Below are positions 10,392 through 43,038 of a stretch of DNA of 64,000 bases, one piece after another. The translations under genes were made by a program, and so were the position numbers. This DNA is from a virus. Each line of letters opens with the position of its first letter. Positions within the stretch are counted from its first letter, which is position 1. Where the stretch lies: positions 1 through 64,000 of IMG/VR virus record IMGVR_UViG_3300046170_000450. One strand, written 5' to 3'. A model generated the notes under the pieces. It was not told the origin of the DNA and did not search any database. It saw only the letters and a list, made by a program, of their open reading frames with translations.

Positions 10392-10419
10392 TTGACTTTT
10401 AAAGACCTAGATATATCAT
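10392..10419 (+). promoter_or_regulatory. Sigma70-type promoter, leaderless start at 10426
   Basis: TTGACT, 16-base spacer, TATCAT, then six bases to ATG. The expected transcription start coincides with the A of the ATG. Confidence 0.65.
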
Positions 10420-10425
10420 ATAAAT

Positions 10426-11227
10426 ATGAGTAAACAACTACACTTCGTATCTGGTCTTCCAAGAGCTTGCTCAACGCTGCTCTGTAATCTACTTGCACAG
10501 AACCCAAAGGTTCACGCTACGCCCTACTAGTGCCTTGCACGAAATAGGCTATATCGCTCGACAGGTCTTTCAGACCGAAGAGGCTAAAGCAGTGGATAAA
10601 AAAAATGTCCTTGAGCCTATGTATCTGGACTACGTCAGGGCTGGCTGTGAGAATGCTTTCAACAGCATCACCGACAGACCCGTAGTGGTAGACAAGTGTC
10701 GCTCTTGGATTGGTCACTTAGACCAGCTCTTCAAGGTGTGGGAAGATGCTAAGGTTCTTGTTCCTGTTCGTGACATTAGAGGTGTTTTGTCTAGTATGGA
10801 GAAGAAGCGTAGACAGCATCCAGAAGTGTTCAACGGTATTGAGCAACAGAATCCGCAGAACTGGACGACTATTGATAAACGTGTAAATGGCTGGCTACAA
10901 AGCCCTCCTATTGGAATCGCTATCGAACGCTTGCACGAAGCCAAGGAACGCTTTGGTGATAGGCTTATGTTTGTTCACGCCGATGACTTAACAGAGAACC
11001 CTCAAGACACAATGAACAAAGTCTGGGAGTATCTGGGCGAAGAACCATTCATCCACAATACTTCTAACGTCGAGCAATACACTCAGGAGTATGATGTTGG
11101 CTTCCCCTACGGAGACCACGTCATCCGTCAAGAAATTAAACCTTTAGTAAAAGACTGGCACGAGACATTAGGTCGCCAGCTATCAGAACAACTCAATCAA
11201 AAATTTAACTGGATTAACGAACTATGA
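10426..11227 (+). CDS. Sulfotransferase family protein with +1 frameshift
   Basis: The first frame starts at 10426 and gives MSKQLHFVSGLPRACSTLLC, a textbook 5'-phosphosulfate loop of PAPS-dependent sulfotransferases (GLPRACSTLL), but it stops at TAG 10528-10530. Moving +1 at CCC-T (10522-10525) joins it to a frame that stays open to 11227 and carries the second PAPS-binding region (VPVRDIRGVLSSM, about residue 105 of the joined protein) and a helical C-terminus. The joined protein is about 266 residues, a normal family length. So the gene is either frameshifted in the sequence, decoded by +1 frameshifting, or recently inactivated. It sits between fibre-like genes and a DUF4376-like gene, so modification of a surface glycan or fibre is possible. 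Confidence 0.75.
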
Positions 11228-11793
11228 AAAACGCCCTAATTAATATTGAATCAAAACGAATCATCAGAGTAAAAGACGATGATTTTTTAAATGTACCCGA
11301 ATTTGCAGAAGTAGTATCTATTTCTAATGCTAAAGCCAGCATCTTTGAATCTTCGACCGAACCAATGTTCTTAATTAGCAACGAGGTTGTTAGCTTAGAT
11401 GAAAAGATGGCTACAGAAAGACAAGAGAGAAAAGAAGAGCGGTTTGCAGAAAATTCAGACCTGTTTAGATCTCGCAAAATTCAAGAAATCAAAAAAGGTA
11501 GAGATGCAGAATATAATGCAATTCTTGTGACCAGCGATGGTCTACAATTCAAATCAGATTTAGAAACTATTATTGACGTAAAGACTTTGATCGAAATCCT
11601 ACCAGATGGTGGCTCCTTTGTTGGTTATAAGTCGGCAGACGGCTCTTACAATGTGATTACTAAAGAACAATTTCAGACAGCAATCACAGAAGGTATAGAA
11701 AGAAAGTCTGCCGCATTCGCTAAAGAGGCGCAACTTGTCGAGGCTGTAACTGCCGCCACAACACTGGCAGAATTAGAAGCAATTGTTTGGTAA
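11224..11793 (+). CDS. DUF4376-like tail/fibre-associated protein
   Basis: 189 residues; the ATG overlaps the sulfotransferase stop by four bases. The middle and C-terminal part (AEYNAILVTSDGLQFKSDLE, then TKEQFQTAITEGIERKSAAF and a closing AATTLAELEAIVW) resembles the DUF4376 module found at the ends of phage tail-fibre or fibre-assembly proteins. A charged helical region (about 60-100) precedes it. The location after the LRR proteins fits a fibre accessory role; family assignment is from pattern memory only. Confidence 0.55.
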   Translation: MKNALINIESKRIIRVKDDDFLNVPEFAEVVSISNAKASIFESSTEPMFLISNEVVSLDEKMATERQERKEERFAENSDLFRSRKIQEIKKGRDAEYNAILVTSDGLQFKSDLETIIDVKTLIEILPDGGSFVGYKSADGSYNVITKEQFQTAITEGIERKSAAFAKEAQLVEAVTAATTLAELEAIVW

Positions 11794-12038
11794 TGAGAAT
11801 AACCATAAAGGCTGACCCCTCAAAATCTAGGGGAAAATCTTATTATTGGAATCTAGCCGAGGCTATGTCACAAGGACTAGCCTCGGTTTTTGGGTTAAAC
11901 GCCAACCTAACCTTCTCTGCTTATTGCGGATACTGGAAACAAGAAAATCTCCCGATAAGGGGAAAATTTTATAAATTTATTAATTTTTTGTTTCAAGATA
12001 AATATCATTGCCAGAACGCTTGGAAGAATTTAACTTGA
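11793..12038 (+). CDS. Doubtful small ORF containing a terminator
   Basis: 81 codons from an ATG that overlaps the previous stop (TAATG). The ORF is crossed by a very strong intrinsic terminator at 11857-11891, so most transcripts arriving from upstream would end inside it. The sequence shows no recognised domain. Coupling to the upstream gene argues for a real start; the terminator argues against a full product. Confidence 0.25.
   Translation: MRITIKADPSKSRGKSYYWNLAEAMSQGLASVFGLNANLTFSAYCGYWKQENLPIRGKFYKFINFLFQDKYHCQNAWKNLT
11857..11891 (+). terminator. Intrinsic terminator of the fibre unit
   Basis: Perfect nine-base stem CCGAGGCTA / TAGCCTCGG with a twelve-base loop, followed by TTTTT. 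Ends transcription of the 8.5-11.8 kb unit. Confidence 0.85.
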
Positions 12039-12063
12039 CAAAAGTACTTTTTTGTGATATCAT
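12035..12063 (+). promoter_or_regulatory. Sigma70-type promoter, leaderless start at 12071
   Basis: TTGACA, 17-base spacer, TATCAT, seven bases, ATG. Confidence 0.7.
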
Positions 12064-12070
12064 TTGTAAA

Positions 12071-12247
12071 ATGAGCAAATGGACGGAACAACAAAGAGGC
12101 GCCTTCTGGAAAAAAGAAGGCAAAAATGGCAAATATTTGGCTGGATATGTAGTCATAGACGGGAAGAAACACCCCGTAACGGTTTTTCCAAACAAGTTCA
12201 AAGAAAAAGAAGCTCAGCCAGAGTTTATTATTTACGAAACTTTTTAA
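12071..12247 (+). CDS. Small DUF736-like protein, 58 aa
   Basis: The start at 12071 is chosen because it sits seven bases after a clear -10 box; the longer frame upstream would begin before the promoter. The motif GAFWKKEGKNGKYLAGYV followed by KHPVTVFPNKFK and a closing FIIYETF resembles the small DUF736 family of phages and plasmids, whose function is unknown. First gene of an early unit. Confidence 0.65.
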   Translation: MSKWTEQQRGAFWKKEGKNGKYLAGYVVIDGKKHPVTVFPNKFKEKEAQPEFIIYETF

Positions 12248-12255
12248 CTTTTTGC

Positions 12256-12283
12256 TTGACTTTGTTATTTTTTATGGCATTAT
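12256..12283 (+). promoter_or_regulatory. Sigma70-type promoter, leaderless start at 12291
   Basis: TTGACT, 16-base spacer, CATTAT, seven bases, ATG. Confidence 0.65.
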
Positions 12284-12290
12284 ACGTCAT

Positions 12291-12482
12291 ATGGCTAAAA
12301 AAACAAAACCAGGCGCTGATTTAAGAGCGCCGAATCCCGCAAAAAGAAAACTAATGGGTCGCTCAAGCGGTCATCTAGTTCATAACGATCATGTCGGTCA
12401 TCTGGTTACTCCAAAGATTGACAAGGCTATCAAAAATAATCTAGAGAAGCGTTCGACGAAATCAAATGCTTCAGCACTATGA
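12291..12482 (+). CDS. Small basic protein, 63 aa
   Basis: Begins MAKKTKPGADLRAPNPAKRK and is strongly basic, with a His-rich middle (HLVHNDHVGHLV). No domain recognised. The start is fixed by the promoter seven bases upstream. It overlaps the next gene by four bases (ATGA-type coupling). A nucleic-acid-binding role would fit its charge but is not shown. Confidence 0.6.
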   Translation: MAKKTKPGADLRAPNPAKRKLMGRSSGHLVHNDHVGHLVTPKIDKAIKNNLEKRSTKSNASAL

Positions 12483-13173: not shown

Positions 13174-13352
13174 GAACAATAGCAGCATTAACACTCTTTT
13201 GGATAGGCGATTTAATCGCTAAGATCTTTTTACGACATGAATTGACAGCACAGATTATGTATAAGCCATATCGTAGAATCATGATCCTATCTAGCGAAAT
13301 TGATAATAAACAGAAGGTTTGGAAAAAGGTTGACAACAACGAGGAACTTTAA
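13170..13352 (+). CDS. Small membrane-anchored protein, 60 aa
   Basis: Overlaps the upstream stop by four bases. Residues 3-19 (TIAALTLFWIGDLIAKI) are hydrophobic, a possible N-terminal membrane anchor. The last codons (KKVDNNEEL) overlap the TTGACA of the next promoter, so coding and promoter information are shared there. Confidence 0.5.
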   Translation: MRTIAALTLFWIGDLIAKIFLRHELTAQIMYKPYRRIMILSSEIDNKQKVWKKVDNNEEL

Positions 13353-13358
13353 TATAAT
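13330..13358 (+). promoter_or_regulatory. Consensus sigma70 promoter, leaderless start at 13365
   Basis: Perfect TTGACA, 17-base spacer and perfect TATAAT, then six bases to ATG. The strongest-looking promoter in the window; the -35 box lies inside the end of the upstream gene. Confidence 0.8.
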
Positions 13359-13364
13359 AATATT

Positions 13365-13637
13365 ATGAATAAAGAAGTAGTAACAAAAGTAAGTATTAAG
13401 TCGTCTAATCTCAACTGGAATCCAATCTTCAATAGCATCCAAGTTGGCCCCGATGACGAGGCCGCTGGTTCTTTCCTGACCATACGCGGAAATGATGAGC
13501 AAAACGACAGTGCTAAAATCTCCCTCGACTGGGAGGAGTGGGACGAACTCGTAAAAGTTGTTTCTAAGTATCGTAAAGATTGGGAATGGGATGCTGATGG
13601 GAATCCTGTAGTAAAGGTGTATACCACATCACAGTAA
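13365..13637 (+). CDS. Hypothetical early protein, 90 aa
   Basis: Acidic protein with beta-rich N-terminal half (VSIKSSNLNWNPIFNSIQVG) and a DWEEWDELVKVVSKYRKDWE helix. Directly behind a perfect consensus promoter, so probably highly expressed early in infection (inference). Function unknown. Confidence 0.6.
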   Translation: MNKEVVTKVSIKSSNLNWNPIFNSIQVGPDDEAAGSFLTIRGNDEQNDSAKISLDWEEWDELVKVVSKYRKDWEWDADGNPVVKVYTTSQ

Positions 13638-17920: not shown

Positions 17921-17926
17921 GTGTAA
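17919..17926 (+). promoter_or_regulatory. Candidate late promoter
   Basis: AAGTGTAA, eight bases before the ATG at 17935. Marks the change from early-type to late-type genes. Confidence 0.6.
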
Positions 17927-17934
17927 ATTGAACT

Positions 17935-18183
17935 ATGGAAGGGCAAATAGAAGTATTAGGAGCGAACCAAGCTTTAAGCAAATTTCAAGAATTTAAGGGA
18001 GAAGGCTCTCTTATCTCTGTGGATAAGGAACATCATTGCTTAATGTTGGGAGAAGAAAAGTTATTTTATCAAATATATAGAACAATTCATGCCGAAGACC
18101 ACATCGAATATGAGGGTTGGTGCAGTGATAAAGAGTCTAATGTAGGGCGAATAGGTATAAAATATACCCCAAAAAACGCTTGA
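17935..18183 (+). CDS. Hypothetical protein, 82 aa
   Basis: Starts MEGQIEVLGANQALSKFQEF; small mixed alpha/beta protein with no membrane segment. First gene of the late-promoter-driven lysis region, so probably late-expressed. Function unknown. Confidence 0.55.
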   Translation: MEGQIEVLGANQALSKFQEFKGEGSLISVDKEHHCLMLGEEKLFYQIYRTIHAEDHIEYEGWCSDKESNVGRIGIKYTPKNA

Positions 18184-33854: not shown

Positions 33855-34027
33855 GCTGTGCTTTGTATTTCTTTTCTGTGTTCTTCGTAGGTTTCGATGT
33901 ACTCCTGCAAGTCGCCAAGTGTTTCAAACCTAGCTAGTTTTTCTTCGTCTTCCATGCACTCTACCACAATGTCTCCACCTTCTTCGTAGTGTTCGTAACA
34001 GTATTCATTTATTTGTTCGATTGTCAT
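33848..34027 (-). CDS. Small acidic protein, 59 aa
   Basis: MTIEQINEYCYEHYEEGGDI start, helical and acidic. Overlaps the downstream gene by seven bases and follows the 113-aa gene by one base, so it belongs to the same operon. Function unknown. Confidence 0.5.
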   Translation of the reverse strand: MTIEQINEYCYEHYEEGGDIVVECMEDEEKLARFETLGDLQEYIETYEEHRKEIQSTAW

Positions 34028-34028
34028 A

Positions 34029-34370: not shown

Positions 34371-34376
34371 ATTAGT

Positions 34377-34405
34377 ATAATGTATTATTTTTTGTGATTA
34401 GTCAA
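34377..34405 (-). promoter_or_regulatory. Sigma70-type promoter, leaderless start at 34370
   Basis: TTGACT, 17-base spacer, CATTAT, six bases, ATG. The block from the spacer end to the ATG is identical to that at 34706. Confidence 0.7.
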
Positions 34406-34408
34406 GCA

Positions 34409-34699
34409 TTACTTTGCATAAGACGCATCGTAACCATTTTCTTCTAAGATTTGAATAATTGACGGAGATAGAGCAAAAACTCCATCATAGTCAACCAACT
34501 CTTTGCCCTCAAACCAAAGACCTCCTTCGGCATACCATTCTCCTCCTCCTGTTTTTTCATCGTACATTTCAAACGAGCCATAGTTTTTGTTTGGCTGTAC
34601 ATGCACGGATATATTCATCTGCACTCCATTTTCTTCACGGATTGTTCCGAATGAGTTTTCGAGGGCGAGGTCTTCAGTAGTTGTTTTTGTGATGTTCAT
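34409..34699 (-). CDS. Hypothetical protein, 96 aa
   Basis: MNITKTTTEDLALENSFGTI start; a beta-rich centre (GSFEMYDEKTGGGEWYAEGG) and a short C-terminal helix. Leaderless start after a promoter. Function unknown. Confidence 0.55.
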   Translation of the reverse strand: MNITKTTTEDLALENSFGTIREENGVQMNISVHVQPNKNYGSFEMYDEKTGGGEWYAEGGLWFEGKELVDYDGVFALSPSIIQILEENGYDASYAK

Positions 34700-34705
34700 A
34701 TTAGT

Positions 34706-34734
34706 ATAATGTATTATTTGATTCGGCGAGTCAA
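34706..34734 (-). promoter_or_regulatory. Sigma70-type promoter, leaderless start at 34699
   Basis: TTGACT, 17-base spacer, CATTAT, six bases, ATG. Confidence 0.7.
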
Positions 34735-34770
34735 CCCCTTTTTTAAAATTTATTTAAATTTATTTAAATT

Positions 34771-34850
34771 CGTAAGTTGTTGATTATCAAGCACTTGCGG
34801 GTCTGCACTGGCCCCCGCCGCGCAAGTCGTTGACCACCAAGGACTTACAG
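34771..34850 (-). repeat. Composite inverted repeat, copy 5
   Basis: Arms CGTAAGTTGTTGA ... TCAAGCACTTGCG and CGCAAGTCGTTGA ... CAAGGACTTACAG; the core (CTGGCCCCCGCCG) is less symmetric than in other copies. Lies downstream of tRNA-Ser. Confidence 0.8.
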
Positions 34851-34870
34851 AACTCTTAATCCATATAGCG

Positions 34871-34910
34871 AAAAGCCGCCTTACCCCAAACACACAAAGG
34901 GTAAGACGGC
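34871..34910 (-). terminator. Terminator after tRNA-Ser
   Basis: Minus-strand stem GCCGTCTTACCC / GGGTAAGGCGGC, then TTTT. A similar hairpin flanks the other side of the tRNA. Confidence 0.6.
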
Positions 34911-34960
34911 ACACACACGTTGCACACACTACAACAAAAGAATTCAAGCTGGCTTTAAAA

Positions 34961-35051
34961 TGGCAGAGAAGATGGGATTCGAACCCATGGAACCTTTTTG
35001 AGGTTCACCTCTTTAGCAAAGAAGCGCTTTCGACCGCTCAGCCACTTCTCT
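34961..35051 (-). tRNA. tRNA-Ser(GCT)
   Basis: Seven-base acceptor AGAGAAG / CTTCTCT, discriminator G, encoded CCA, long variable arm, anticodon loop TTTGCTAA with GCT. Reads AGC/AGU. Isolated from the main tRNA array by 7.4 kb and flanked by two related hairpins. Confidence 0.95.
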
Positions 35052-35055
35052 AGAA

Positions 35056-35104
35056 ATTTAAGCCGCCTCGCCCTAACCGCAAGATAGTCACAAGACGAGA
35101 CGGC
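35056..35104 (-). terminator. Hairpin/terminator between 35132 gene and tRNA-Ser
   Basis: Minus-strand stem GCCGTCTCG / CGAGGCGGC with a long loop, followed by a short T-rich run. Preceded by the same GTGTGTGTGCCGTCT phrase as the hairpin at 34871. Confidence 0.45.
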
Positions 35105-35131
35105 ACACACACATGTTACAACAACAAAAGG

Positions 35132-35383
35132 TTAGACAAGTTTAATTTTTTCGATTCTGTGCTTATAGAAAGAACGGATGCCGCTATGCTTCGCGCCAGT
35201 GGCGTAAGAGTAGGTATTGAACATATCGCCCAAGTCTTCAATGAAGTTCATGTCAATGACATAAGAGCCGACAGTTTCATCAGACTTTTTCTTGTAGGTG
35301 ATTTGAGCCATATTATTCTTAGCGAAAGCGCGACGAACAGCAAGGCGGGTTTTTTGGATTGGATTTAGTTTTAGGTTTTTCAT
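35132..35383 (-). CDS. Small WYL-like protein, 83 aa
   Basis: QITYKKKSDETVGSYVIDMN and the C-terminal SFYKHRIEKIKLV have the look of a stand-alone WYL-type beta barrel, a ligand-sensing fold; this is a weak match. The start has a good ribosome site (ACGGAGAAAAG) and a promoter with a leader. Basic N-terminus (LAVRRAFAKNNM). Confidence 0.5.
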   Translation of the reverse strand: MKNLKLNPIQKTRLAVRRAFAKNNMAQITYKKKSDETVGSYVIDMNFIEDLGDMFNTYSYATGAKHSGIRSFYKHRIEKIKLV

Positions 35384-35425
35384 GTTTTCTTTTCTCCGTT
35401 TTGGATTTTCGATTGTTAAGATTAT

Positions 35426-35453
35426 ATCTTAGCAGATTTTTATGTTATGTCAA
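35426..35453 (-). promoter_or_regulatory. Sigma70-type promoter with leader
   Basis: TTGACA, 16-base spacer, TAAGAT; leader with Shine-Dalgarno before ATG 35383. Confidence 0.6.
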
Positions 35454-35747
35454 TACTTTTTTAGGAAGTTTTGCGATTTTTTCTAACAAGTCATTAGCAG
35501 AGTCTACATTAAGGAAGCCTGCGACATCGTCTGTAATTTCTGGGTGTTTGGCAATGCATCCATTCTCATCCAGCAATGCAAGCTCTAAGCCGTAAGAAGA
35601 ATCGTGTAGGACTACAGAAGCTCCATAGCCATTAGGAAACTCAAAAATCTTTTGCCAACCAAAAAGTTCTTTACGTTCGGTTAATGTCATAGTGTGATGA
35701 GAGGTGGATGAGACTTTGAATATTTGTTGTATGGTGTCTTTGTTCAT
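35445..35747 (-). CDS. Hypothetical protein, 100 aa
   Basis: Start at 35747 (MNKDTIQQIFKVSSTSHHTM), seven bases after a promoter; the longer frame begins upstream of that promoter. GASVVLHDSSYGLELALLDE centre. The end overlaps the promoter of the next gene. Function unknown. Confidence 0.55.
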   Translation of the reverse strand: MNKDTIQQIFKVSSTSHHTMTLTERKELFGWQKIFEFPNGYGASVVLHDSSYGLELALLDENGCIAKHPEITDDVAGFLNVDSANDLLEKIAKLPKKVLT

Positions 35748-35754
35748 AAGGCGT

Positions 35755-35783
35755 ATAATATTATTATTTGTTTTGGTTGTCAA
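35755..35783 (-). promoter_or_regulatory. Sigma70-type promoter, leaderless start at 35747
   Basis: TTGACA, 17-base spacer, TATTAT, seven bases, ATG. Confidence 0.75.
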
Positions 35784-35889
35784 GGTTTTGTTTGAAGTTT
35801 CTTCTCCACCTCGCAAGACCAAGCATTCCTATGCGCTTGAAGGTCTCCCAATTTGGCTTGGGGTCTGACAGTTCTAGCCATATTTTCAT
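35764..35889 (-). CDS. Small basic protein, 41 aa
   Basis: From ATG 35889: MKIWLELSDPKPNWETFKRI, ending LARWRRNFKQNLDNQNK; the -35 box of the next promoter (encoding DNQ) lies in its last codons. A possible promoter (TTGCTA, 16 bases, TATACT) sits about 35 bases upstream. Function unknown. Confidence 0.45.
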   Translation of the reverse strand: MKIWLELSDPKPNWETFKRIGMLGLARWRRNFKQNLDNQNK

Positions 35890-36041
35890 TCTTCGTTTGG
35901 GATCTATATTCACACCTAATAGTATACCAAACCGAATCGAAATAGCAAGCAAATAAATAGCAAATCGAACACTTTTTTACGGCAAATAGTGTAAAGTATT
36001 GATAGTCAAGGACTTCGGGAACAAAAAAAACTTACAGGTTC

Positions 36042-36120
36042 TGTAAGTTGCTGACTATCAAAGACTTGCGGGTCGGGGCGGGCCCTGGCCTCGCAAGTCG
36101 TTGAGAAACAAGGACTTACA
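36042..36120 (-). repeat. Composite inverted repeat, copy 6
   Basis: Arms TGTAAGTTGCTGA ... TCAAAGACTTGCG and CGCAAGTCGTTGA ... CAAGGACTTACA around GGGGCGGGCCCTGGCC. Supplies the TAA stop of the gene at 36116. A degenerate half copy lies at 35997-36020. Confidence 0.8.
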
Positions 36121-36310
36121 CAGTCCCAACGTGCTCCCCGTCGCGCTCGATCGCCCAGCCCTCGTAGAGGTCGATATGCCTCACGTCACCACGCCCAACA
36201 GTAGGGCAGTAGATCATGGCGAGTTGCCCGCAAGAATAGGTGAACATCACCTGCACAGTGCGAGCGTGGTTGCGAGTCGGGCGGAGGAGATCGTCTTTTT
36301 TGATTATCAT
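36116..36310 (-). CDS. Hypothetical protein, 64 aa
   Basis: MIIKKDDLLRPTRNHARTVQ start and VRHIDLYEGWAIERDGEHVG end. GC-richer than most neighbours. Its stop is inside repeat copy 6. Leaderless start. Function unknown. Confidence 0.55.
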   Translation of the reverse strand: MIIKKDDLLRPTRNHARTVQVMFTYSCGQLAMIYCPTVGRGDVRHIDLYEGWAIERDGEHVGTV

Positions 36311-36316
36311 GACTAC

Positions 36317-36344
36317 AGTCTAACAAAAAAAATCGTTCTGTCAA
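36317..36344 (-). promoter_or_regulatory. Sigma70-type promoter, leaderless start at 36310
   Basis: TTGACA, 16-base spacer, TAGACT, six bases, ATG. Confidence 0.65.
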
Positions 36345-36381
36345 CTGTTTTTTTAAAAAAAATTAAAAAAAATTTAGATTA

Positions 36382-36460
36382 CATAAGTTATTGATCACCA
36401 AGTACTTGCGCCGCTCACGCCGCCCCCGCCCCGCAAGTCGTTGACTATCAAGGACTTATG
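36382..36460 (-). repeat. Composite inverted repeat, copy 7
   Basis: Arms CATAAGTTATTGA ... CAAGTACTTGCG and CGCAAGTCGTTGA ... TCAAGGACTTATG around a GC-rich core. Encodes the last residues (ISP) and TGA of the gene at 36448. Confidence 0.8.
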
Positions 36461-36654
36461 AGTTCCTCTTCTCTCTCTTCGCGGACTAGGTCAAAGACCT
36501 CGGCTAGGGTCTTCACCTCACCCGTTTCGCCGTTGGTGAGGGTTTCCTTGTTGCCACAAGGCTCGCAGAATTCGAGCCAGTCGCTACCGAGAACGAGGGT
36601 GTTGGTACCGCCCATAGGGCGGCGAGTGTCGCAGAAACAGCAATGATCAGCCAT
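36448..36654 (-). CDS. Small zinc-ribbon-like protein, 68 aa
   Basis: CCFCDTRRP and CEPCGNKE form two CxxC knuckles 24 residues apart, as in small zinc ribbons; the rest is acidic. Twenty bases after the previous stop, so probably co-transcribed with it. Function unknown. Confidence 0.6.
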   Translation of the reverse strand: MADHCCFCDTRRPMGGTNTLVLGSDWLEFCEPCGNKETLTNGETGEVKTLAEVFDLVREEREEELISP

Positions 36655-36674
36655 AATTTTTTGTGTGGTTAGGG

Positions 36675-36869
36675 TTAGCGGAAGTCAGCGTTGTGCATGA
36701 GTTCCTGTTGGAAAAGTCGCTCTTGGCGTTGAGCCTCGCCACGCTCGCGCTCGGATTGCTCGCGAAGCATTGCAGTTTCAAACTCGGCGAACTCAGCCTC
36801 GGACAAGTCAGCCCAAGGGTCGAAGGAAGCAGGAGTGGCGGAAGGAGTGGATGTATTTTTGATTGTCAT
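36675..36869 (-). CDS. Small acidic helical protein, 64 aa
   Basis: MTIKNTSTPSATPASFDPWA start, then a long charged helix (FAEFETAMLREQSERERGEA). Leaderless start. Possible coiled coil. Function unknown. Confidence 0.55.
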   Translation of the reverse strand: MTIKNTSTPSATPASFDPWADLSEAEFAEFETAMLREQSERERGEAQRQERLFQQELMHNADFR

Positions 36870-36876
36870 AATTAAA

Positions 36877-36904
36877 AGAATAAGAAAAAAGGTTAGGCTG
36901 TCAA
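36877..36904 (-). promoter_or_regulatory. Sigma70-type promoter, leaderless start at 36869
   Basis: TTGACA, 16-base spacer, TATTCT, seven bases, ATG. Confidence 0.7.
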
Positions 36905-36923
36905 GGCTTTTGCGAAAAAAAGA

Positions 36924-37163
36924 TTAGAAATCTGACATTCTTTCTTCGCGTTCCATCGCGTCCCAAGCCTCGTCGTCGAGTTGCTTTTGAGAAGGGACAG
37001 GAAGCGGAGCGACCTCGTCGAGGCGAGAGACGGGAACCCACTGTTCGCCGCCATCTTCATCCAAGACCCAAGCGAGACCCATCTTGACGTCACCGACAAA
37101 GACAGGGATGGAAAGATCGAGGAGGGCTTCTGTGCCAGATTTGATTTGTGTTGTAGTTATCAT
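36924..37163 (-). CDS. Hypothetical protein, 79 aa
   Basis: Beta-rich N-terminal half (LLDLSIPVFVGDVKMGLAWV) and acidic helical C-terminus. Leaderless start after a promoter. Function unknown. Confidence 0.55.
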   Translation of the reverse strand: MITTTQIKSGTEALLDLSIPVFVGDVKMGLAWVLDEDGGEQWVPVSRLDEVAPLPVPSQKQLDDEAWDAMEREERMSDF

Positions 37164-37169
37164 ACGAGT

Positions 37170-37198
37170 ATTGTATCAGAGAAAATCGGAAAAGTCAA
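37170..37198 (-). promoter_or_regulatory. Sigma70-type promoter, leaderless start at 37163
   Basis: TTGACT, 17-base spacer, TACAAT, six bases, ATG. Confidence 0.7.
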
Positions 37199-37288
37199 CC
37201 CCTAAACGCATCTTTTTTTGCTTTTTTTTAACTTTTTTTTCGTGCGGCAGATTGGCACGGCAATTGACACGAGCGCAGTTCGGGGTTT

Positions 37289-37368
37289 CGTAAGTCGTTG
37301 TATATCAAGCACTTGCGCGGCGGGGCGGGCCCCCGACCCGTAAGTCGTTGACTATCAGTAACTTACAG
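37289..37368 (-). repeat. Composite inverted repeat, copy 8
   Basis: Arms CGTAAGTCGTTG ... TCAAGCACTTGCG and CGTAAGTCGTTGA ... TCAGTAACTTACAG around GCGGGGCGGGCCCCCGACC. Overlaps the end of the lysozyme-like gene. Confidence 0.8.
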
Positions 37369-37791
37369 ATGCTTTGAGACCTTTGTCCAATAAATTTCTA
37401 GATTTTTTTGCTTTTGGTCGCTCTTTGGATTTGCAACACGCTTCCAAGCTGATCCGCCCCCGTTCCATATAAAAGCAAGATGTTTTGCGTTTAACTTTTC
37501 ACCATTGCGTTTGATATACTTTTCATAGTGACGAAAGATTCCGATTGCGATATTGTGAGAAGTCAAGCGGTTTGACATTTGCTGATGTTTTACATTCGTG
37601 CCGTAGATACGATTATAGTCGTCCAACATGATTGGTCTGATCTGAAGAGAGCCTAACGCTTTTTCGCTTTCGTTATAAGCAGAAGGATTGCAATTGCTTT
37701 CCACTTTTTCTAAAGCAATAATTAAATCAGTTAATGTTGCACCTTGCGCGATTGATGCGCAGATGGCGAATATTAGTATTAGTTTTTTCAT
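37363..37791 (-). CDS. Secreted lysozyme-like (SLT) protein
   Basis: 142 residues. An N-terminal signal peptide (MKKLILIFAICASIAQG) is followed by a goose-lysozyme/SLT-type domain: ALEKVESNCNPSAYNESEKA with probable catalytic Glu31, then LGSLQIRPIMLDDYNRIYGT, and AIGIFRHYEKY. The C-terminus has FIWNGGGSAWK. It would cut peptidoglycan in the periplasm. It is far from the holin-like gene and lies among early genes, so it might act in lysis or in preparing the cell wall; which one is not clear. Confidence 0.75.
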   Translation of the reverse strand: MKKLILIFAICASIAQGATLTDLIIALEKVESNCNPSAYNESEKALGSLQIRPIMLDDYNRIYGTNVKHQQMSNRLTSHNIAIGIFRHYEKYIKRNGEKLNAKHLAFIWNGGGSAWKRVANPKSDQKQKNLEIYWTKVSKHL

Positions 37792-37836
37792 AGTGTTTTT
37801 TTAAAAAACTTTCGATTTCGTTTTGAGGATGTAGGC

Positions 37837-38046
37837 TCATACAAGAAAAGTAACGTTTATCGGTTTTCCTTCTGGGTGCATTTCAGATATCCCCCTATAG
37901 TGTAAGGGAATGTCTTCTACATAGGTCGATGCCCCGTGGTATTTTGTGCGCACGTAGCACTTAGCGTTTTGCGGCATTTCTTTTAGCTTCGCGATCACCT
38001 CCGCAACTGTAGGTGCGTCCCCGTATTTCCTGTATTTAGTTTCCAT
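37837..38046 (-). CDS. Hypothetical protein, 69 aa
   Basis: METKYRKYGDAPTVAEVIAK start; a short helix followed by strands (AKCYVRTKYHGASTYVEDIP). The start lies 11 bases inside the previous gene. Function unknown. Confidence 0.5.
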   Translation of the reverse strand: METKYRKYGDAPTVAEVIAKLKEMPQNAKCYVRTKYHGASTYVEDIPLHYRGISEMHPEGKPINVTFLV

Positions 38047-38332
38047 TATTTAAAACATCGCCTTTGATACTGCCTTTGACACTTCCCCAGATATTGCCCC
38101 TAACATCTCTGTAGATATTGCCGCCGACATAGCCTCCAATAGAGCCTTTTACATTGCCTCTGATACTGCCTTCAATAGTACCCCTAACATCGCTCCATAT
38201 ATTACCTTCTACAAAGCCATAAACATAGCCGTGGATATCGCCTTCGACATTCAAAACCCTAAGGTTTCCCTCGGAGTCGCGTTTGAACGAAACGAGTTTT
38301 TTGATTTCTTCTAGTGTTGGTTCTTTTTTCAT
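38036..38332 (-). CDS. Gly-rich beta-helix repeat protein, 98 aa
   Basis: After a charged head (about 1-28), residues 29-93 are short repeats of the form G-x-(I/V)-x-G-x-V, e.g. GTIEGSIRGNVKGSIGGYVG. Such spacing predicts a small left-handed beta helix like bactofilin-type or polymer-forming repeats. Overlaps both neighbours (ATGA upstream). Its leader is identical over about 40 bases to that of the lysozyme-like gene. Function unknown. Confidence 0.55.
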   Translation of the reverse strand: MKKEPTLEEIKKLVSFKRDSEGNLRVLNVEGDIHGYVYGFVEGNIWSDVRGTIEGSIRGNVKGSIGGYVGGNIYRDVRGNIWGSVKGSIKGDVLNNGN

Positions 38333-38565
38333 AGTGTTTTTTTAAAAAACTTTCGATTTCGTTTTGAGACACAGAGAACCCCGTCAGAGTATCCAATGTC
38401 CGTGGCGTATCCAGATTTTATAAATTTGCGCTCTAATTCTTGGAGCCGTAAGTGATAGTGGCACTCTTCGTAGTCTGTTGGCACATATATGCGAACGACC
38501 ATTTCTAGTGGTTCGTCTGGCGTCATTCCCCACCCGATATGTTTTCTTTGAAATGTTAGCTTCAT
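38329..38565 (-). CDS. Hypothetical protein, 78 aa
   Basis: MKLTFQRKHIGWGMTPDEPL start; VVRIYVPTDYEECHYHLRLQ centre. First gene of a three- to four-gene operon; the promoter lies 17 bases upstream. Function unknown. Confidence 0.5.
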   Translation of the reverse strand: MKLTFQRKHIGWGMTPDEPLEMVVRIYVPTDYEECHYHLRLQELERKFIKSGYATDIGYSDGVLCVSKRNRKFFKKTL

Positions 38566-38582
38566 AGTTTATATTGGTTTGT

Positions 38583-38610
38583 AGTATGGTTATTTTTGTT
38601 CGATTGTCAA
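38583..38610 (-). promoter_or_regulatory. Sigma70-type promoter with short leader
   Basis: TTGACA, 16-base spacer, CATACT; 17 bases to ATG 38565. The -35 box lies within the end of the gene at 38590. Confidence 0.7.
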
Positions 38611-38769
38611 GCGATTTTGGAAAGTTTTTTCCATTAATTTTTGCTCGGTGCGACCATAGATTGCGCCCCAATTCTTGGCAGGGATCGCAGGGTAGAGTTT
38701 GCGTTGAGTGTTGTAGCTCGCTTGCGTGAGGTGGTCGATTACCGAATCAATTTCTTTATTTGTTATCAT
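38590..38769 (-). CDS. Small helical protein, 59 aa, paralogue of 40571 gene
   Basis: MITNKEIDSVIDHLTQASYN, then TQRKLYPAIPAKNWGAIYGR. It is about two-thirds identical to the protein at 40571-40750. The C-terminal NRLTIEQK and the TAA stop are encoded by the -35 box and spacer of the next promoter. Leaderless start six bases after its own promoter. Function unknown. Confidence 0.65.
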   Translation of the reverse strand: MITNKEIDSVIDHLTQASYNTQRKLYPAIPAKNWGAIYGRTEQKLMEKTFQNRLTIEQK

Positions 38770-38775
38770 GCTTAC

Positions 38776-38803
38776 AGTATGGGGATAAAAACGAGAAAGT
38801 CAA
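38776..38803 (-). promoter_or_regulatory. Sigma70-type promoter, leaderless start at 38769
   Basis: TTGACT, 16-base spacer, CATACT, six bases, ATG. Confidence 0.7.
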
Positions 38804-38838
38804 CCCTTTTTTTAATTTTTTTAACTTTTTTTCAGTTG

Positions 38839-38917
38839 CGTAAGTCATTCACTATCAAGCACTTGCGTGGCGCGGGCGGCCCTGGCCCCGCAAGTCGTTG
38901 ATATTCAAGGACTTACA
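38839..38917 (-). repeat. Composite inverted repeat, copy 9
   Basis: Arms CGTAAGTCATTCA ... TCAAGCACTTGCG and CGCAAGTCGTTGA ... TCAAGGACTTACA around GCGGGCGGCCCTGGCC. Supplies the stop of the gene at 38913. Confidence 0.8.
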
Positions 38918-39050
38918 TGATTGCGTTTATCGCAACCCCTGAGACGGTGTCAAACATTTTTTGAAACCAGCCAATTTTGTTTGCGATGAAGTAAGTGCAA
39001 GCCGCGATTGTCAAGCAAATTGCAGTTGTTTTGTCAATTATTATTTTCAT
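38913..39050 (-). CDS. Small membrane protein, 45 aa
   Basis: One transmembrane segment near the N-terminus (TAICLTIAACTYFIANKIGW) and a short tail. The TAA stop lies in repeat copy 9. Second gene of a run of tiny membrane genes. Function unknown. Confidence 0.45.
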   Translation of the reverse strand: MKIIIDKTTAICLTIAACTYFIANKIGWFQKMFDTVSGVAINAIM

Positions 39051-39051
39051 T

Positions 39052-39201
39052 TTATTTTATTGCGTTGTCGATTTCCTCAAAGCGATGCCAAGAGCTTTCT
39101 TTGATTTGTTGAGCTTTGTCGTCGAGCTTAAGCCCGACGAACATTGCTAACCCAAGAATTAATCCAAAAAGAACAAGAGCTAAAATTTCCCAAATTTTCA
39201 T
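39052..39201 (-). CDS. Small membrane protein, 49 aa
   Basis: Start at 39201 (MKIWEILALVLFGLILGLAM): transmembrane helix then an amphipathic charged tail. Closely packed with the two neighbouring membrane genes. Function unknown. Confidence 0.5.
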   Translation of the reverse strand: MKIWEILALVLFGLILGLAMFVGLKLDDKAQQIKESSWHRFEEIDNAIK

Positions 39202-39206
39202 TTTTT

Positions 39207-39359
39207 TTATTCTCCGATTGGGTAGCCTTGCTCTATCCAAGCTTGGCGTTGTAAGTCTTCTCTTTCAGTCTCTCGGTCGAGCGACATGATTAGAAAAGCA
39301 GTAAGGACTCCACACATTACAAGTAGGCAGAGGGCGAGGGTTTTTGTTTCGTTGTCCAT
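39207..39359 (-). CDS. Small membrane protein, 50 aa
   Basis: MDNETKTLALCLLVMCGVLT start, one transmembrane helix (about 7-25), then a charged tail (DRETEREDLQRQAWIEQGYP). Part of the same run. Function unknown. Confidence 0.5.
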   Translation of the reverse strand: MDNETKTLALCLLVMCGVLTAFLIMSLDRETEREDLQRQAWIEQGYPIGE

Positions 39360-39364
39360 TAGTA

Positions 39365-39622
39365 TTATTTTGATTGGTGGTATTCAGCCATATATTGAAC
39401 GCTTCTTTCAAGCTTGTCAAGTATATCTTGAGGGTTAATTCCTTCAGCGATCTTGAGGTTGTTAAGAATCTCTACGTCGCTAGCACGACCGCCGAGTTCA
39501 CGACCGAAGCCATAGCGACCATCTGTAAAAGAACAGCGACCATAAGTGATATCAGTCAAAACCATAGGCTTGTTGTCAACGATGTAAGCCTTACCGAGTG
39601 TGAGTGTGTTTAGTGTTTCCAT
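39365..39622 (-). CDS. Hypothetical protein, 85 aa
   Basis: METLNTLTLGKAYIVDNKPM start; beta-rich N-terminal half and a C-terminal helix (DILDKLERSVQYMAEYHQ). Leads the operon of three small membrane genes; leaderless start. Function unknown. Confidence 0.55.
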   Translation of the reverse strand: METLNTLTLGKAYIVDNKPMVLTDITYGRCSFTDGRYGFGRELGGRASDVEILNNLKIAEGINPQDILDKLERSVQYMAEYHQSK

Positions 39623-39629
39623 GATTAAC

Positions 39630-39657
39630 AGTATGTTTATTTTTGTGTGATTGTCAA
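39630..39657 (-). promoter_or_regulatory. Sigma70-type promoter, leaderless start at 39622
   Basis: TTGACA, 16-base spacer, CATACT, seven bases, ATG. The sequence just upstream matches the 3' end of the gene at 38590, so this promoter was probably copied with that end. Confidence 0.75.
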
Positions 39658-39685
39658 GCGATTTTGGAAAGTTTTTTGAGAATTA

Positions 39686-39829
39686 TTAAAGATCCAAAAG
39701 AAGCGTTTCCCAAGTATCAAGCTCGGCGGCGTGGAACTCTGCCTTGTCAAGATCATTCTTTTCAAGTGCTTTTTCGTAACGAGCCTTGTGCAGGGCAATT
39801 TTCTTTTGTATGGATTCTTTTTTAAGCAT
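39686..39829 (-). CDS. Small charged helical protein, 47 aa
   Basis: MLKKESIQKKIALHKARYEK and a following EKNDLDKAEFHAAELDTWET form one long amphipathic helix, a possible coiled coil. Leaderless start. Function unknown. Confidence 0.5.
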   Translation of the reverse strand: MLKKESIQKKIALHKARYEKALEKNDLDKAEFHAAELDTWETLLLDL

Positions 39830-39835
39830 GATTAC

Positions 39836-39863
39836 AGTATGGTTAAAAGTAGTGGAAAGTCAA
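39836..39863 (-). promoter_or_regulatory. Sigma70-type promoter, leaderless start at 39829
   Basis: TTGACT, 16-base spacer, CATACT, six bases, ATG. Confidence 0.7.
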
Positions 39864-39928
39864 GCGGTTTTTTTAAAAAAAGTAAAAAAAAGTTTTTTTA
39901 AATTGGCACGGAGTTTGAACAGCGGTTT

Positions 39929-40008
39929 CGTAAGTGCTTGATTACCAAGGACTTGCGCGGCGCGGGGGGCCGCAGGCTCGCAAGTCGCTGATATTCAACG
40001 ACTTACGA
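39929..40008 (-). repeat. Composite inverted repeat, copy 10
   Basis: Arms CGTAAGTGCTTGA ... CAAGGACTTGCG and CGCAAGTCGCTGA ... TCAACGACTTACG around GCGGGGGGCCGC. Lies seven bases 3' of the gene ending at 40015. Confidence 0.8.
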
Positions 40009-40014
40009 AGTTGG

Positions 40015-40197
40015 CTAAGGGTTCTGGTCGACGACTTCGTCGCCGCACCAGATCATCCAATCTTGACAAGGGCGGGCGAACTCGTAAGCCGCATCAAGAC
40101 CTCGGCGAGACTTCGGAAAGTCGCGAACTTGTTCAAGCATTTCGCCTGAGTTAGAAAAATCTGCGGTAGTGACTGTGTATTTTTTATTGTTTATCAT
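40015..40197 (-). CDS. Hypothetical protein, 60 aa
   Basis: MINNKKYTVTTADFSNSGEM start; short strand, helix, then Trp-rich end (DWMIWCGDEVVDQNP). Leaderless start. Function unknown. Confidence 0.5.
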   Translation of the reverse strand: MINNKKYTVTTADFSNSGEMLEQVRDFPKSRRGLDAAYEFARPCQDWMIWCGDEVVDQNP

Positions 40198-40204
40198 GTA
40201 TACT

Positions 40205-40232
40205 ACAATAGGGATTCAAGCGGTGATGTCAA
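40205..40232 (-). promoter_or_regulatory. Sigma70-type promoter, leaderless start at 40197
   Basis: TTGACA, 16-base spacer, TATTGT, seven bases, ATG. Confidence 0.65.
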
Positions 40233-40421: not shown

Positions 40422-40556
40422 TTATTTGCATTCGGATTTTTCGAGACGGACTAAGCCGCGAACTTCTAAGCAAGAAGCGATGAAGTCAGCCCAGTCATAA
40501 TCCATTTCATCGAGGGCTGCCCAGTATTGGCGAGAGAAGTGCAGTTGTTCATTCAT
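40422..40556 (-). CDS. Small protein, 44 aa
   Basis: MNEQLHFSRQYWAALDEMDY start, Trp-rich helix. First gene behind a leaderless promoter; operon with the 52-aa gene. Function unknown. Confidence 0.5.
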   Translation of the reverse strand: MNEQLHFSRQYWAALDEMDYDWADFIASCLEVRGLVRLEKSECK

Positions 40557-40563
40557 GTTTTAT

Positions 40564-40591
40564 AGTATGGTTATTTTTGTGCGATTGTCAA
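40564..40591 (-). promoter_or_regulatory. Sigma70-type promoter, leaderless start at 40556
   Basis: TTGACA, 16-base spacer, CATACT, seven bases, ATG. -35 box inside the end of the 40571 gene. Confidence 0.75.
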
Positions 40592-40750
40592 CTGTTTTTG
40601 AAAATTATTTTCAAGTTTTTTAGCCACGCCCTCGCCGTAGACTTTGCCCCAGCGACCAGCTTTGATCTCTGGGTAGAGTTTGCGTTGCGTGTTGTAGCTC
40701 ACTTGCGTGAGGTGGTCAATGACGTTGTCGATTTCTTTATTGCTTATCAT
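40571..40750 (-). CDS. Small helical protein, 59 aa, paralogue of 38590 gene
   Basis: MISNKEIDNVIDHLTQVSYN, then TQRKLYPEIKAGRWGKVYGE, same length as the paralogue at 38590. The C-terminal KQLTIAQK and TAA stop again overlap the next promoter's -35 and spacer. Leaderless start. Function unknown. Confidence 0.65.
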   Translation of the reverse strand: MISNKEIDNVIDHLTQVSYNTQRKLYPEIKAGRWGKVYGEGVAKKLENNFQKQLTIAQK

Positions 40751-40757
40751 GTCTTAC

Positions 40758-40785
40758 AGTATGGCTAAAAGTTGGGGCTTGTCAA
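40758..40785 (-). promoter_or_regulatory. Sigma70-type promoter, leaderless start at 40750
   Basis: TTGACA, 16-base spacer, CATACT, seven bases, ATG. Confidence 0.75.
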
Positions 40786-40813: not shown

Positions 40814-41044
40814 TTAGTAGCGACCTATGCGAGCTAGAGATTTTTCTTCGCGAAGAAAGCTCTCTTCTTTTTCTTCTTCGCTCTCGATCAACTCGTCTTG
40901 TTCCAAGTCGCCGTATTTGACGAAGAACTCGCGACCGTCATCATCGGAAACAAGCACTTGTGGATAAAAGCCGTATGCGTCAATGACGAAGACAGTTGAG
41001 TTGTCAGTTGTGAGGAGAGCGGATTTGTTTTCTATTATGTTCAT
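40814..41044 (-). CDS. Hypothetical protein, 76 aa
   Basis: MNIIENKSALLTTDNSTVFV start; beta-rich (VIDAYGFYPQVLVSDDDGRE) with an acidic helical tail. Leaderless start. First gene of the minus-strand early block next to the HNH gene. Function unknown. Confidence 0.5.
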   Translation of the reverse strand: MNIIENKSALLTTDNSTVFVIDAYGFYPQVLVSDDDGREFFVKYGDLEQDELIESEEEKEESFLREEKSLARIGRY

Positions 41045-41051
41045 GCTTTAT

Positions 41052-41080
41052 AGAATGTAAAATTTCGCACACGATGTCAA
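41052..41080 (-). promoter_or_regulatory. Sigma70-type promoter, leaderless start at 41044
   Basis: TTGACA, 17-base spacer, CATTCT, seven bases, ATG. Confidence 0.65.
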
Positions 41081-41248: not shown

Positions 41249-42376
41249 CTAAAAAGGCATTTTATTTGATTTATAAACGTTATCTCTAAACCAAAGAGGT
41301 TGCAAGTTAGTATAGTAGTTAGTGCCACCCTTCGAAACAGGAATAATGTGGTCTATTGTCCAATACTGCCATTTATCATCACACGTAGATTTTCCATAGT
41401 TATCCCAAGTCATACCTTCTTGAAATTGAGATTCAAGATGGCGTTTGAGTTCTTTATTTGTTAAACCTATTTCTTTTTTATAATTATCTTCTGGAGTCTT
41501 TATGAAACTTCTAAGTCTCTTTCTAACGTTTTGGTGTATTTTGTATTCTGGTTTTTGGTTTAGTTGTCGTCTTTTTTCTTTGCCTTGTGGCGAATCCCTC
41601 CATTTCTTTGATGATTTTAGTCTACGCTTTCTATCAGCGGGGGCTTCATTTTTAAGCTTATTTTTGTTATAAGTGCTTGTACATTCTTGGCATCTATAAG
41701 AATAGTAAGTAATGCCACTCTTAGTGTATGTTTCAAATTCCGAAAGGGGGAAAATACCACCACAGGTTTTACATATTCCTTTTTGATTTTTTTCATCAGT
41801 ATATATTAATACATGATTTTTTCCATCTGGTATGGCCCAACCCTCTTTTTCTAATTCTTTTAGTTTTGATTCTGGGATTTTTATTTTTGAAGAACTATGT
41901 CGAGTATACTTACCTTTAGATAGTTTTTCGGCTAAAAAGTTTAACTCTTTTTTGGCGGTAAAGCAAAAATAACCATTACCTTCATAACTTAAAGGGACTT
42001 TTATTTTTTTTAATCCCAACTTAGTGAAAAACAATAATTGCCAAACTTTTTTATCTTCGATACCCTCTTGCCCAAAAAGTCCCAAGCCTCTTAAGTATGA
42101 AGCTAATTCTTTAGTGTTGTAAAAATCATTTCTATCTGCGTTTAAAACAGTTTTAAAATAATTTTTTTGAAAGATTGATGAGTATTTTTCTTTATTCAGA
42201 ATCTCATAATCTAAAAATTGTCCCACCTTATTTCTCTTGATGAGTATATCATCAACATCTAAGATATCAGCGCAAATTTCTTCGACGACAATTTTCTCAA
42301 TTAATTTGGAACCTATTTTGATTTCAACAGAGTGAAAATCATCGCATTCAACTAAACTACATTTACAATAACCCAT
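41249..42376 (-). CDS. HNH endonuclease, homing-type
   Basis: 375 residues. The C-terminal HNH core is complete: WTIDHIIPVSKGGTNYYTNL with DH and the later Asn, then LQPLWFRDNVYKSNK. Before it is a zinc-finger pair (CKTCGGIFPLSEF and CQECTSTYNKNK, about residues 209-250) and a basic helical linker. The N-terminal half is a probable DNA-recognition region. Free-standing HNH genes beside tRNA clusters are common mobile genes in phages. Probably read together with tRNA-Arg upstream. Confidence 0.85.
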   Translation of the reverse strand: MGYCKCSLVECDDFHSVEIKIGSKLIEKIVVEEICADILDVDDILIKRNKVGQFLDYEILNKEKYSSIFQKNYFKTVLNADRNDFYNTKELASYLRGLGLFGQEGIEDKKVWQLLFFTKLGLKKIKVPLSYEGNGYFCFTAKKELNFLAEKLSKGKYTRHSSSKIKIPESKLKELEKEGWAIPDGKNHVLIYTDEKNQKGICKTCGGIFPLSEFETYTKSGITYYSYRCQECTSTYNKNKLKNEAPADRKRRLKSSKKWRDSPQGKEKRRQLNQKPEYKIHQNVRKRLRSFIKTPEDNYKKEIGLTNKELKRHLESQFQEGMTWDNYGKSTCDDKWQYWTIDHIIPVSKGGTNYYTNLQPLWFRDNVYKSNKMPF

Positions 42377-42412
42377 AATATATTTTTATTCATTTCAGTT
42401 TATTTTTAAAAT

Positions 42413-42486
42413 TGGTACTCCGACCAGGATTCGAACCTGGAACGCAAGATTAGAAGTCATGTGTTATATCCCTTTAACTATCGGAG
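42413..42486 (-). tRNA. tRNA-Arg(TCT)
   Basis: Acceptor CTCCGAT / GTCGGAG, anticodon loop CTTCTAA with TCT, T-loop GGTTCGAATCC, encoded CCA. One mismatch in the anticodon stem. Its 5' nine bases are also the last codons of the upstream gene. Confidence 0.9.
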
Positions 42487-43002
42487 CGTTTGTTTTTTGT
42501 GCCAGTTCAAAAAAGTGTCAATATCCGCTAATTGATTATATTCGATTTCATATCTACTTTGATCATAAGTGAAATTATTGGTTTTGGTCCCAGCTTTCTT
42601 TAAGTCAGCTATTTTGAAAAACTTTTTTTTGGATATAATGCCGCATATCCAAACAACGCTAAAATCATTCTTGACTCTACTGAAAATATAGTAATCGGTG
42701 TCTCTATTTTTTTGCTCTTCATATAGGGTGGCACTATAATTAGACATTGGTTTGCTATTGCATCCTTGAGCTTTGGAATCTATTGTGTCTGAGTTTTTTA
42801 AAACAAAATCAACAGAATAACCTTCGGCATAAACTATATCTGCATAAGTATTGCTAATTGCTGCTTCAGCTAGATAACCAGTTATTCTTTGTCTTTGTTT
42901 GTTTGATCTGTGAGTGCCTGTATGTCCGAACATTTCATAGAATTTTTTATTTCTTTGATTTGCTTCATCAAGCATGAATTTTGTGACTTCAACTTCTACC
43001 AT
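42478..43002 (-). CDS. PD-(D/E)XK-like nuclease candidate
   Basis: 174 residues from ATG 43002, eight bases after a promoter; the longer frame would start upstream of it. GYLAEAAIS (Glu46), YSVDFVLKN (Asp65) and TIDSKAQG (Asp75-x-Lys77) fit a restriction-endonuclease-like core, followed by strand-rich YYIFSRVKNDFSVVWICGI. The final codons (CTC CGA TAG) form the start of tRNA-Arg. Role unknown; could be a homing or host-DNA nuclease. Confidence 0.5.
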   Translation of the reverse strand: MVEVEVTKFMLDEANQRNKKFYEMFGHTGTHRSNKQRQRITGYLAEAAISNTYADIVYAEGYSVDFVLKNSDTIDSKAQGCNSKPMSNYSATLYEEQKNRDTDYYIFSRVKNDFSVVWICGIISKKKFFKIADLKKAGTKTNNFTYDQSRYEIEYNQLADIDTFLNWHKKQTLR

Positions 43003-43010
43003 GAGTGTGT

Positions 43011-43038
43011 ATACTATTAGCCCCAAAATAAAAGTCAA
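43011..43038 (-). promoter_or_regulatory. Sigma70-type promoter before 43002 gene
   Basis: TTGACT, 16-base spacer, TAGTAT, eight bases, ATG. Lies directly downstream of tRNA-Ile. Confidence 0.55.

Follow-up and report, generated by a model that had tools for sequence, protein, structure and literature searches.

Promoter-to-ATG fusions and predicted leaderless mRNAs in a tailed phage from metagenomes

We analysed the first 64,000 bases (the window) of the 86,911-base IMG/VR virus record IMGVR_UViG_3300046170_000450, with the focus on 26 sites where a TTGAC[AT] box and a -10 box are followed almost directly by the ATG of a gene. The record belongs to a tailed phage. Its genes include those for a J tail protein (lambda-like) and a minor tail protein, for rIIA, rIIB, PhoH and GP88, and for 12 tRNAs. 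A preliminary description, made from the sequence alone, had reported such promoters ahead of rIIA-like, glycosylase-like, macro-domain and GP88-like genes; rIIA (PHROG 612, E=4e-78, aligned from residue 1), an 8-oxoguanine glycosylase-like gene and GP88 were confirmed, while the Macro match falls just below the Pfam cut-off.

Many contigs in the IMG/VR metagenomes are near-identical or related to this phage, and these relatives suggest that it is marine. Megablast gave no match among isolate phages, and a comparison of its TerL with named phages gave distant relatives only (<30% identity). A TerL search of 84,980 species genomes returned one match, on a contig of 6.2 kb assigned to a Patescibacteria bin; this is insufficient to name the host, and the contig may be mis-binned.

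Geometry and conservation of the TTGAC sites

The search pattern was TTGAC[AT]-N16/17-NANNNT-N6/7-ATG, with 100 dinucleotide shuffles and the reversed pattern as controls. The window contains 24 matches, all within 10.4-41.1 kb (positions 10392-41080; 9 on the plus and 15 on the minus strand), against 0.45 +/- 0.67 expected; the shuffle maximum was 4, and 0 of 100 shuffles reached 24. The whole record holds no matches beyond these, and the reversed pattern gave 0 matches in it. All 24 fusions of the preliminary description are therefore present, as are its two additional sites at eight and nine bases (ATG 43002, minus strand, N8; ATG 29435, plus strand, N9), and the comparison with shuffled controls that it proposed comes out in its favour. 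Its wording 'genome-wide' is appropriate only for 10-43 kb in the TTGAC class, other regions using a different motif. Relatives carry the same pattern as well (13 matches in G019, 17 in G022 and 14 in G024).

The -10 boxes of the 26 sites are mostly CATACT or TATACT. When offsets of 0-60 nucleotides (nt) from the -10 box to an ATG were counted in the window phage, offset 6 accounted for 10 cases and offset 7 for 14, no other value exceeding 3. Thus 24 of its 42 promoters have an ATG at offset 6-7, the corresponding fractions in four relatives being 12/30, 10/23, 8/15 and 7/11, and the sole peak in the histograms of all five phages is at 6-7 nt. Chance origin of the fusions was ruled out by the shuffles, the reversed-pattern controls and the offset histogram. 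Measuring the distance from TTGAC[AT] to ATG without assuming a -10 box (five contigs, 15-69 nt) gave 49 cases at 35 nt and 1-16 at each other distance. With +1 set at the A of the ATG, TTGAC therefore begins at -35, the textbook position, and the -10 box lies about 10 bp upstream of the start codon, as in leaderless genes of the TA-led kind.

In the set of 61 sites from the window phage and the four relatives, the spacer is 16 or 17 nt, and spacer and discriminator offset each other, their sum being 35 in 46 sites. A pyrimidine directly precedes the ATG in 57 of the 61. A pyrimidine-purine dinucleotide is usual at transcription start sites; since T at -1 is also frequent in other genes of the window phage, this is supporting and not decisive. 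The 12 nt after the ATG are 62% A in these sites, compared with 47% in other genes.

Thirty distinct orthologue upstream regions with <60% identity to those of the window were used for evaluating conservation. In 22 of them TTGAC precedes the ATG by 34-38 nt, and in none of the 30 does it occur elsewhere within 60 nt of the ATG. In a GP88 orthologue whose protein is 96% identical, the spacer is unrelated but the promoter-ATG geometry unchanged, and the same is seen for the 113-amino-acid (aa) gene at ATG 34370, where G009, G002 and L110 carry a different promoter and spacer. One cassette (TTGACAAYCNNACAAAAATAAYCATACT...ATG) recurs across genes and phages. Conserved geometry despite diverged spacers points to selection on the promoter-to-ATG distance and not to repeat copying. 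In-frame TTG or GTG starts further upstream, overlapping the promoters, were considered as the true starts and ruled out, because in many orthologues identity upstream drops to 14-57% whereas the ATG and its distance to TTGAC are kept.

Substitutions between orthologues of the leaderless genes number 1291, 581 and 450 at codon positions 3, 1 and 2, respectively, and 191, 99 and 78 in codons 2-16 alone. The tiny open reading frames (ORFs) evolve as coding sequence from the promoter-fused ATG onwards. RIIA aligns to T4 RIIA (T4-like) from residue 1. Neither GTG nor TTG occurs at offsets 6-7 in the window phage, and these ATG-only starts are in keeping with the AUG preference of leaderless initiation (PMC9031893).

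A Shine-Dalgarno (SD) 4-mer was found in 0 of 63 gene starts belonging to either promoter class (the TTGAC class and the second class described below) in three contigs, compared with 29 of 192 other genes, where it exceeds background mainly in the window phage. There, the 4-mer lies at -17 to -4 in 19 of the 78 other genes that start with ATG, the controls giving 3-7 of 78. The earlier statement that genes inside the same operons have SD sites therefore holds only in part, SD use being weaker than described. In the relatives G009 and G010 (L098-L105) SD is barely over background, even in genes with neither promoter class. Two TTGACA promoters of the window phage, before rIIB and before the gene at ATG 35383, have an SD and a longer predicted leader of about 35-42 nt (Table 1). 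Predicted leaders hence fall into two groups, close to zero and around 40 nt, resembling those mapped in Lactococcus cremoris, where leaders measure either <5 nt or some 40 nt and lengths between 4 and 14 nt are missing (PMC10986495).

Two observations concern the genes at these sites. The sulfotransferase at 10426-11227 (plus strand) is spread over two frames, and is either broken in the contig or affected by a sequencing error. The 59-aa genes at 40571-40750 and 38590-38769 (minus strand) are paralogous, each with its own predicted leaderless promoter, and have relatives in several contigs.

Table 1. Positions of promoter-ATG sites and associated features in the window. TTGAC sites are sigma70-type promoters, predicted to be leaderless unless marked otherwise.
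Feature	ATG	Position	Strand	Remarks
TTGAC site	10426	10392..10428	+	34-codon ORF, N-terminus of frame-broken sulfotransferase
TTGAC site	12071	12035..12073	+	58 aa; geometry kept in G009, L093, L094
TTGAC site	12291	12256..12293	+	63 aa
TTGAC site	13365	13330..13367	+	90 aa
TTGAC site	20019	19984..20021	+	rIIA
TTGAC site	22244	22210..22246	+	8-oxoguanine glycosylase-like
TTGAC site	26341	26305..26343	+	macro-domain protein, just under Pfam cut-off
TTGAC site	28012	27977..28014	+	61 aa
TTGAC site	28930	28895..28932	+	85 aa
TTGAC site, near-leaderless (N9)	29435	29398..29437	+	AAA clamp-loader/RuvB-like ATPase
TTGAC site	30841	30839..30876	-	72 aa
TTGAC site	32231	32229..32267	-	GP88; geometry kept in L109, L110, L111
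TTGAC site	34370	34368..34405	-	113 aa
TTGAC site	34699	34697..34734	-	96 aa
TTGAC site	35747	35745..35783	-	100 aa
TTGAC site	36310	36308..36344	-	64 aa
TTGAC site	36869	36867..36904	-	64 aa
TTGAC site	37163	37161..37198	-	79 aa
TTGAC site	38769	38767..38803	-	59 aa
TTGAC site	39622	39620..39657	-	85 aa
TTGAC site	39829	39827..39863	-	47 aa
TTGAC site	40197	40195..40232	-	60 aa
TTGAC site	40556	40554..40591	-	44 aa
TTGAC site	40750	40748..40785	-	59 aa
TTGAC site	41044	41042..41080	-	76 aa
TTGAC site, near-leaderless (N8)	43002	43000..43038	-	174 aa
Leadered contrast, TTGACA, SD AAGGA	23070	22993..23072	+	rIIB; predicted leader about 40 nt
Leadered contrast, TTGACA, SD GGAG	35383	35381..35453	-	predicted leader about 35 nt
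Second class, GTGTAA-N8-ATG	7755	7753..7769	-	minor tail protein; kept in 4 relatives, 33-65% protein identity
Second class, GTGTAA-N8-ATG		8495..8511	+	
Second class, GTGTAA-N8-ATG	17935	17921..17937	+	kept in 4 relatives, 25-31% protein identity
Second class, GTGTAA-N8-ATG		49962..49978	+	kept in many relatives
Second class, GTGTAA-N8-ATG		52072..52088	+	kept in relatives, 37-47% protein identity
Second class, GTGTAA-N10-ATG		52969..52987	+	PhoH-like
Putative phage sigma factor		54011..54682	+	sigma-70 regions 2 and 4, ECF-like; candidate GTGTAA reader, beside second-class genes
85-nt hairpin element, ten copies		30537..40009	-	starts 30537, 30899, 32344, 33412, 34767, 36038, 36378, 37285, 38835, 39925

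A second motif class, a putative sigma factor and a hairpin element

Gene calls revealed a different motif, overlooked in the preliminary description, ahead of many structural genes. Its consensus is AGTGTAA[AT][AT], with a pyrimidine at -1 in 29 of 32 cases and no visible -35 box. The offset from GTGTAA to ATG is 8-9 nt in 12 cases in the window phage, 13 in G009 and 7 in G010, with other offsets at most 3. Among the genes of this class, which are presumably late, are those for the minor tail protein and PhoH; two very large ORFs, of 1867 aa at record position 71435 and of 1776 aa at 80244, also belong to it. The motif is kept in orthologues with protein identities as low as 25-31% (ATG 17935) and 33-39% (ATG 7755). 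Within the group, each phage has 4-16 such sites, compared with 2 in T4, 0 in phiYS40, 6 in HTVC008M (reversed pattern 2) and 11 in the three times larger phiKZ (reversed pattern 8). A possible third start-site motif, CAAATAA...AT, is shared directly before the ATG by the neighbouring genes at 18783, 19112 and 19425 (plus strand); its copy ahead of 18783 is retained in four relatives whose proteins are 81-84% identical.

The AGTGTAA[AT] box is probably read by the protein encoded at 54011..54682, a putative sigma factor with 67-95% identity in 29 relatives. It matches TIGR02937 (E=3e-7) and the Pfam models of regions 2 and 4, all under the curated cut-offs, and the top PDB matches of its structure model are extracytoplasmic function (ECF) sigma factors, none with E<0.005.

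The 85-nt hairpin element is intergenic and forms a long hairpin interrupted at regular intervals by internal loops; it is common to G009, G010, L108 and L109. In eight of the ten copies, the distance from the end of the element to a downstream TTGAC promoter is 23-87 nt. Fold z-scores range from -1.7 to -7.4, the fold being strong in most copies, and covariation among the ten showed no excess over shuffles. An Rfam search matched tRNA as the sole family and none for the hairpin, and a comparison with plasmids gave no meaningful match. The element is likely a terminator or mRNA-end element.

Elsewhere in the window, an S-adenosylmethionine decarboxylase gene adjoins one for spermidine synthase (16319-17435, plus strand), i.e. 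a polyamine pathway in a phage. Within the tRNA cluster, ARAGORN reports at 43811-43893 (minus strand) a tRNA whose type it leaves undetermined and whose anticodon it reads as four bases (ccat).

Leaderless transcription and its alternatives

Judged from the DNA, the 26 TTGAC sites are very probably sigma70-type promoters giving leaderless mRNAs, with a companion class probably read by the putative phage sigma factor. Host RNA polymerase would read the TTGACA/T promoters and start at the A of the start codon, or 1-3 nt before it, and 70S ribosomes would bind the 5'-terminal AUG of the resulting mRNAs without SD. The TTGAC sites would drive first or only cistrons of a small-gene region which, from gene content and promoter type, is presumably early. 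AGTGTAA[AT], about 8 nt before the ATG, would serve tail and other presumably late genes alike, probably via the phage sigma factor. The second class makes leaderless starts look like a phage-wide expression rule and not one promoter's habit. The leaderless reading in the preliminary description is backed by each sequence test that might have contradicted it: shuffles, offsets, ATG-only starts in the window phage, the pyrimidine at -1, absence of SD, orthologue geometry, coding evolution and the RIIA alignment.

Several points weigh against this interpretation. Starts were predicted from the -10 spacing, and the real +1 could be a few bases off; both this spacing and the capacity for leaderless translation are assumed and may not be those of the host. 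Eight of the 30 diverged orthologues, some from other phage lineages, are without TTGAC at the expected place. The sigma factor match is weak (Pfam sigma region 2, E=7e-4, under cut-off; predicted TM score of the model 0.36). The Thermus phage P23-45 gave 0 pattern matches, so the pattern need not detect every phage possibly using leaderless mRNA.

The RNA might instead begin 1-5 nt before the ATG, translation still being SD-independent, and the excess of N7 over N6 sites (41 versus 20) would agree with such very short leaders, as would the N8-N10 spacing at two window sites and in a few orthologues. We regard this as improbable, since the pyrimidine at -1 and the fixed 35-nt distance indicate +1 at the A, and the gap in the Lactococcus cremoris leader lengths (PMC10986495) speaks against it as well. 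Sequence cannot prove start codons, and the ATG could be an incidental part of the initial transcribed sequence, with translation from a downstream codon having its own ribosome site. This is highly implausible, given that the homology of RIIA to T4 RIIA begins at residue 1, that the third-position bias is already present in codons 2-16, and that ATG is never replaced by GTG or TTG at these offsets in the window phage.

A further explanation concerns why, and not what, and is compatible with leaderless transcription: the host itself may be widely leaderless, as Actinobacteria and Deinococcus-Thermus are, with the phage following it. Several bacterial groups are rich in leaderless genes (PMC3160421), and the scarce use of SD in G009 and G010 fits; the only host lead, however, is the Patescibacteria-bin contig. 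We consider mimicry of the host possible, at slightly less than an even chance. To the broader proposal, that a widespread marine phage group uses leaderless mRNA by default for first cistrons throughout infection, with early sigma70-type and late phage-sigma promoters placing +1 at the A of AUG, we give an even chance. Such a default would free the phage's mRNAs from dependence on SD-led 30S initiation, and might fit ribosomes that infection has altered. If leaderless transcription is true, this phage family offers a natural system for studying when SD-independent 70S initiation is favoured, as well as precise start-site predictions and corrected gene starts for uncultured marine phages.

Comparison with known systems

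Leaderless mRNAs have mostly been studied singly (lambda cI) or in special hosts, and a virus in which many gene switches, of two promoter types, are built in this way would be rare. Kasugamycin inhibits mRNAs that have a leader and spares leaderless ones (PMC5230787). The preliminary description called systematic use by a phage unusual; rarity stands, yet a precedent exists in the Thermus phage phiYS40, with leaderless middle and late transcripts (Sevostyanova 2007, as summarised in the review PMC3594737), where leaderless use is reported to go along with an IF2/IF3 shift during infection. As a positive control, phiYS40 gave 10 matches to the TTGAC pattern; T4 gave 1, Slash 0, SPO1 3, P-SSM2 3 (reversed 7) and phiKZ 4 (reversed 7), values close to background. 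The window phage and phiYS40 are thus alike in having many genes with promoter boxes abutting the ATG (24 and 10, respectively). They differ in that phiYS40 is of another phage lineage, infects a thermophilic host group rich in leaderless genes and is leaderless on middle and late genes, whereas the window phage has presumably early sigma70-type promoters together with the second class. A full-text literature search, with most subscription journals outside its scope, found no phage with systematic leaderless promoters closer than phiYS40.

Leaderless genes preceded directly by a -10 box occur commonly among the cellular genes of Deinococcus-Thermus (PMC12340547) and of Actinobacteria (PMC3160421). 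In the former a TANNNT box a few bp before the ATG likewise yields leaderless mRNA, but a -35 box serves just to enhance expression, whereas TTGAC[AT] is part of the pattern in the window phage and lies at a fixed distance. The second class resembles T4 late promoters read by gp55 (PMC2988020) in its single AT-rich box about one turn upstream, without visible -35 box; a divergent phage sigma factor, putative in the window phage, would be a further likeness. It differs in that the box is AGTGTAA[AT] and not the T4 TATA box, that it abuts the ATG, and that the putative sigma factor has a recognisable region 4.

The hairpin and promoter arrangement recalls the T4-type PeSL (early-promoter stem-loop) cassettes (Arbiol 2010 and Comeau 2014, as cited in PMC4503421), where a repeated stem-loop and promoter lie between small genes; a repeated stem-loop also precedes the promoter here (eight of ten hairpins). 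As far as those cassettes are described there, orthologues carry different promoters in both systems, with unchanged geometry in the group of the window phage, which is suggestive of shuffling only; the 85-nt hairpin differs in having its own conserved sequence, and the promoters in being predicted leaderless. Systematic leaderless transcription in a phage is thus of a known kind. What the window phage adds is a new phage group, the use of strong -35 boxes with leaderless starts on small genes that are presumably early, and the second class.

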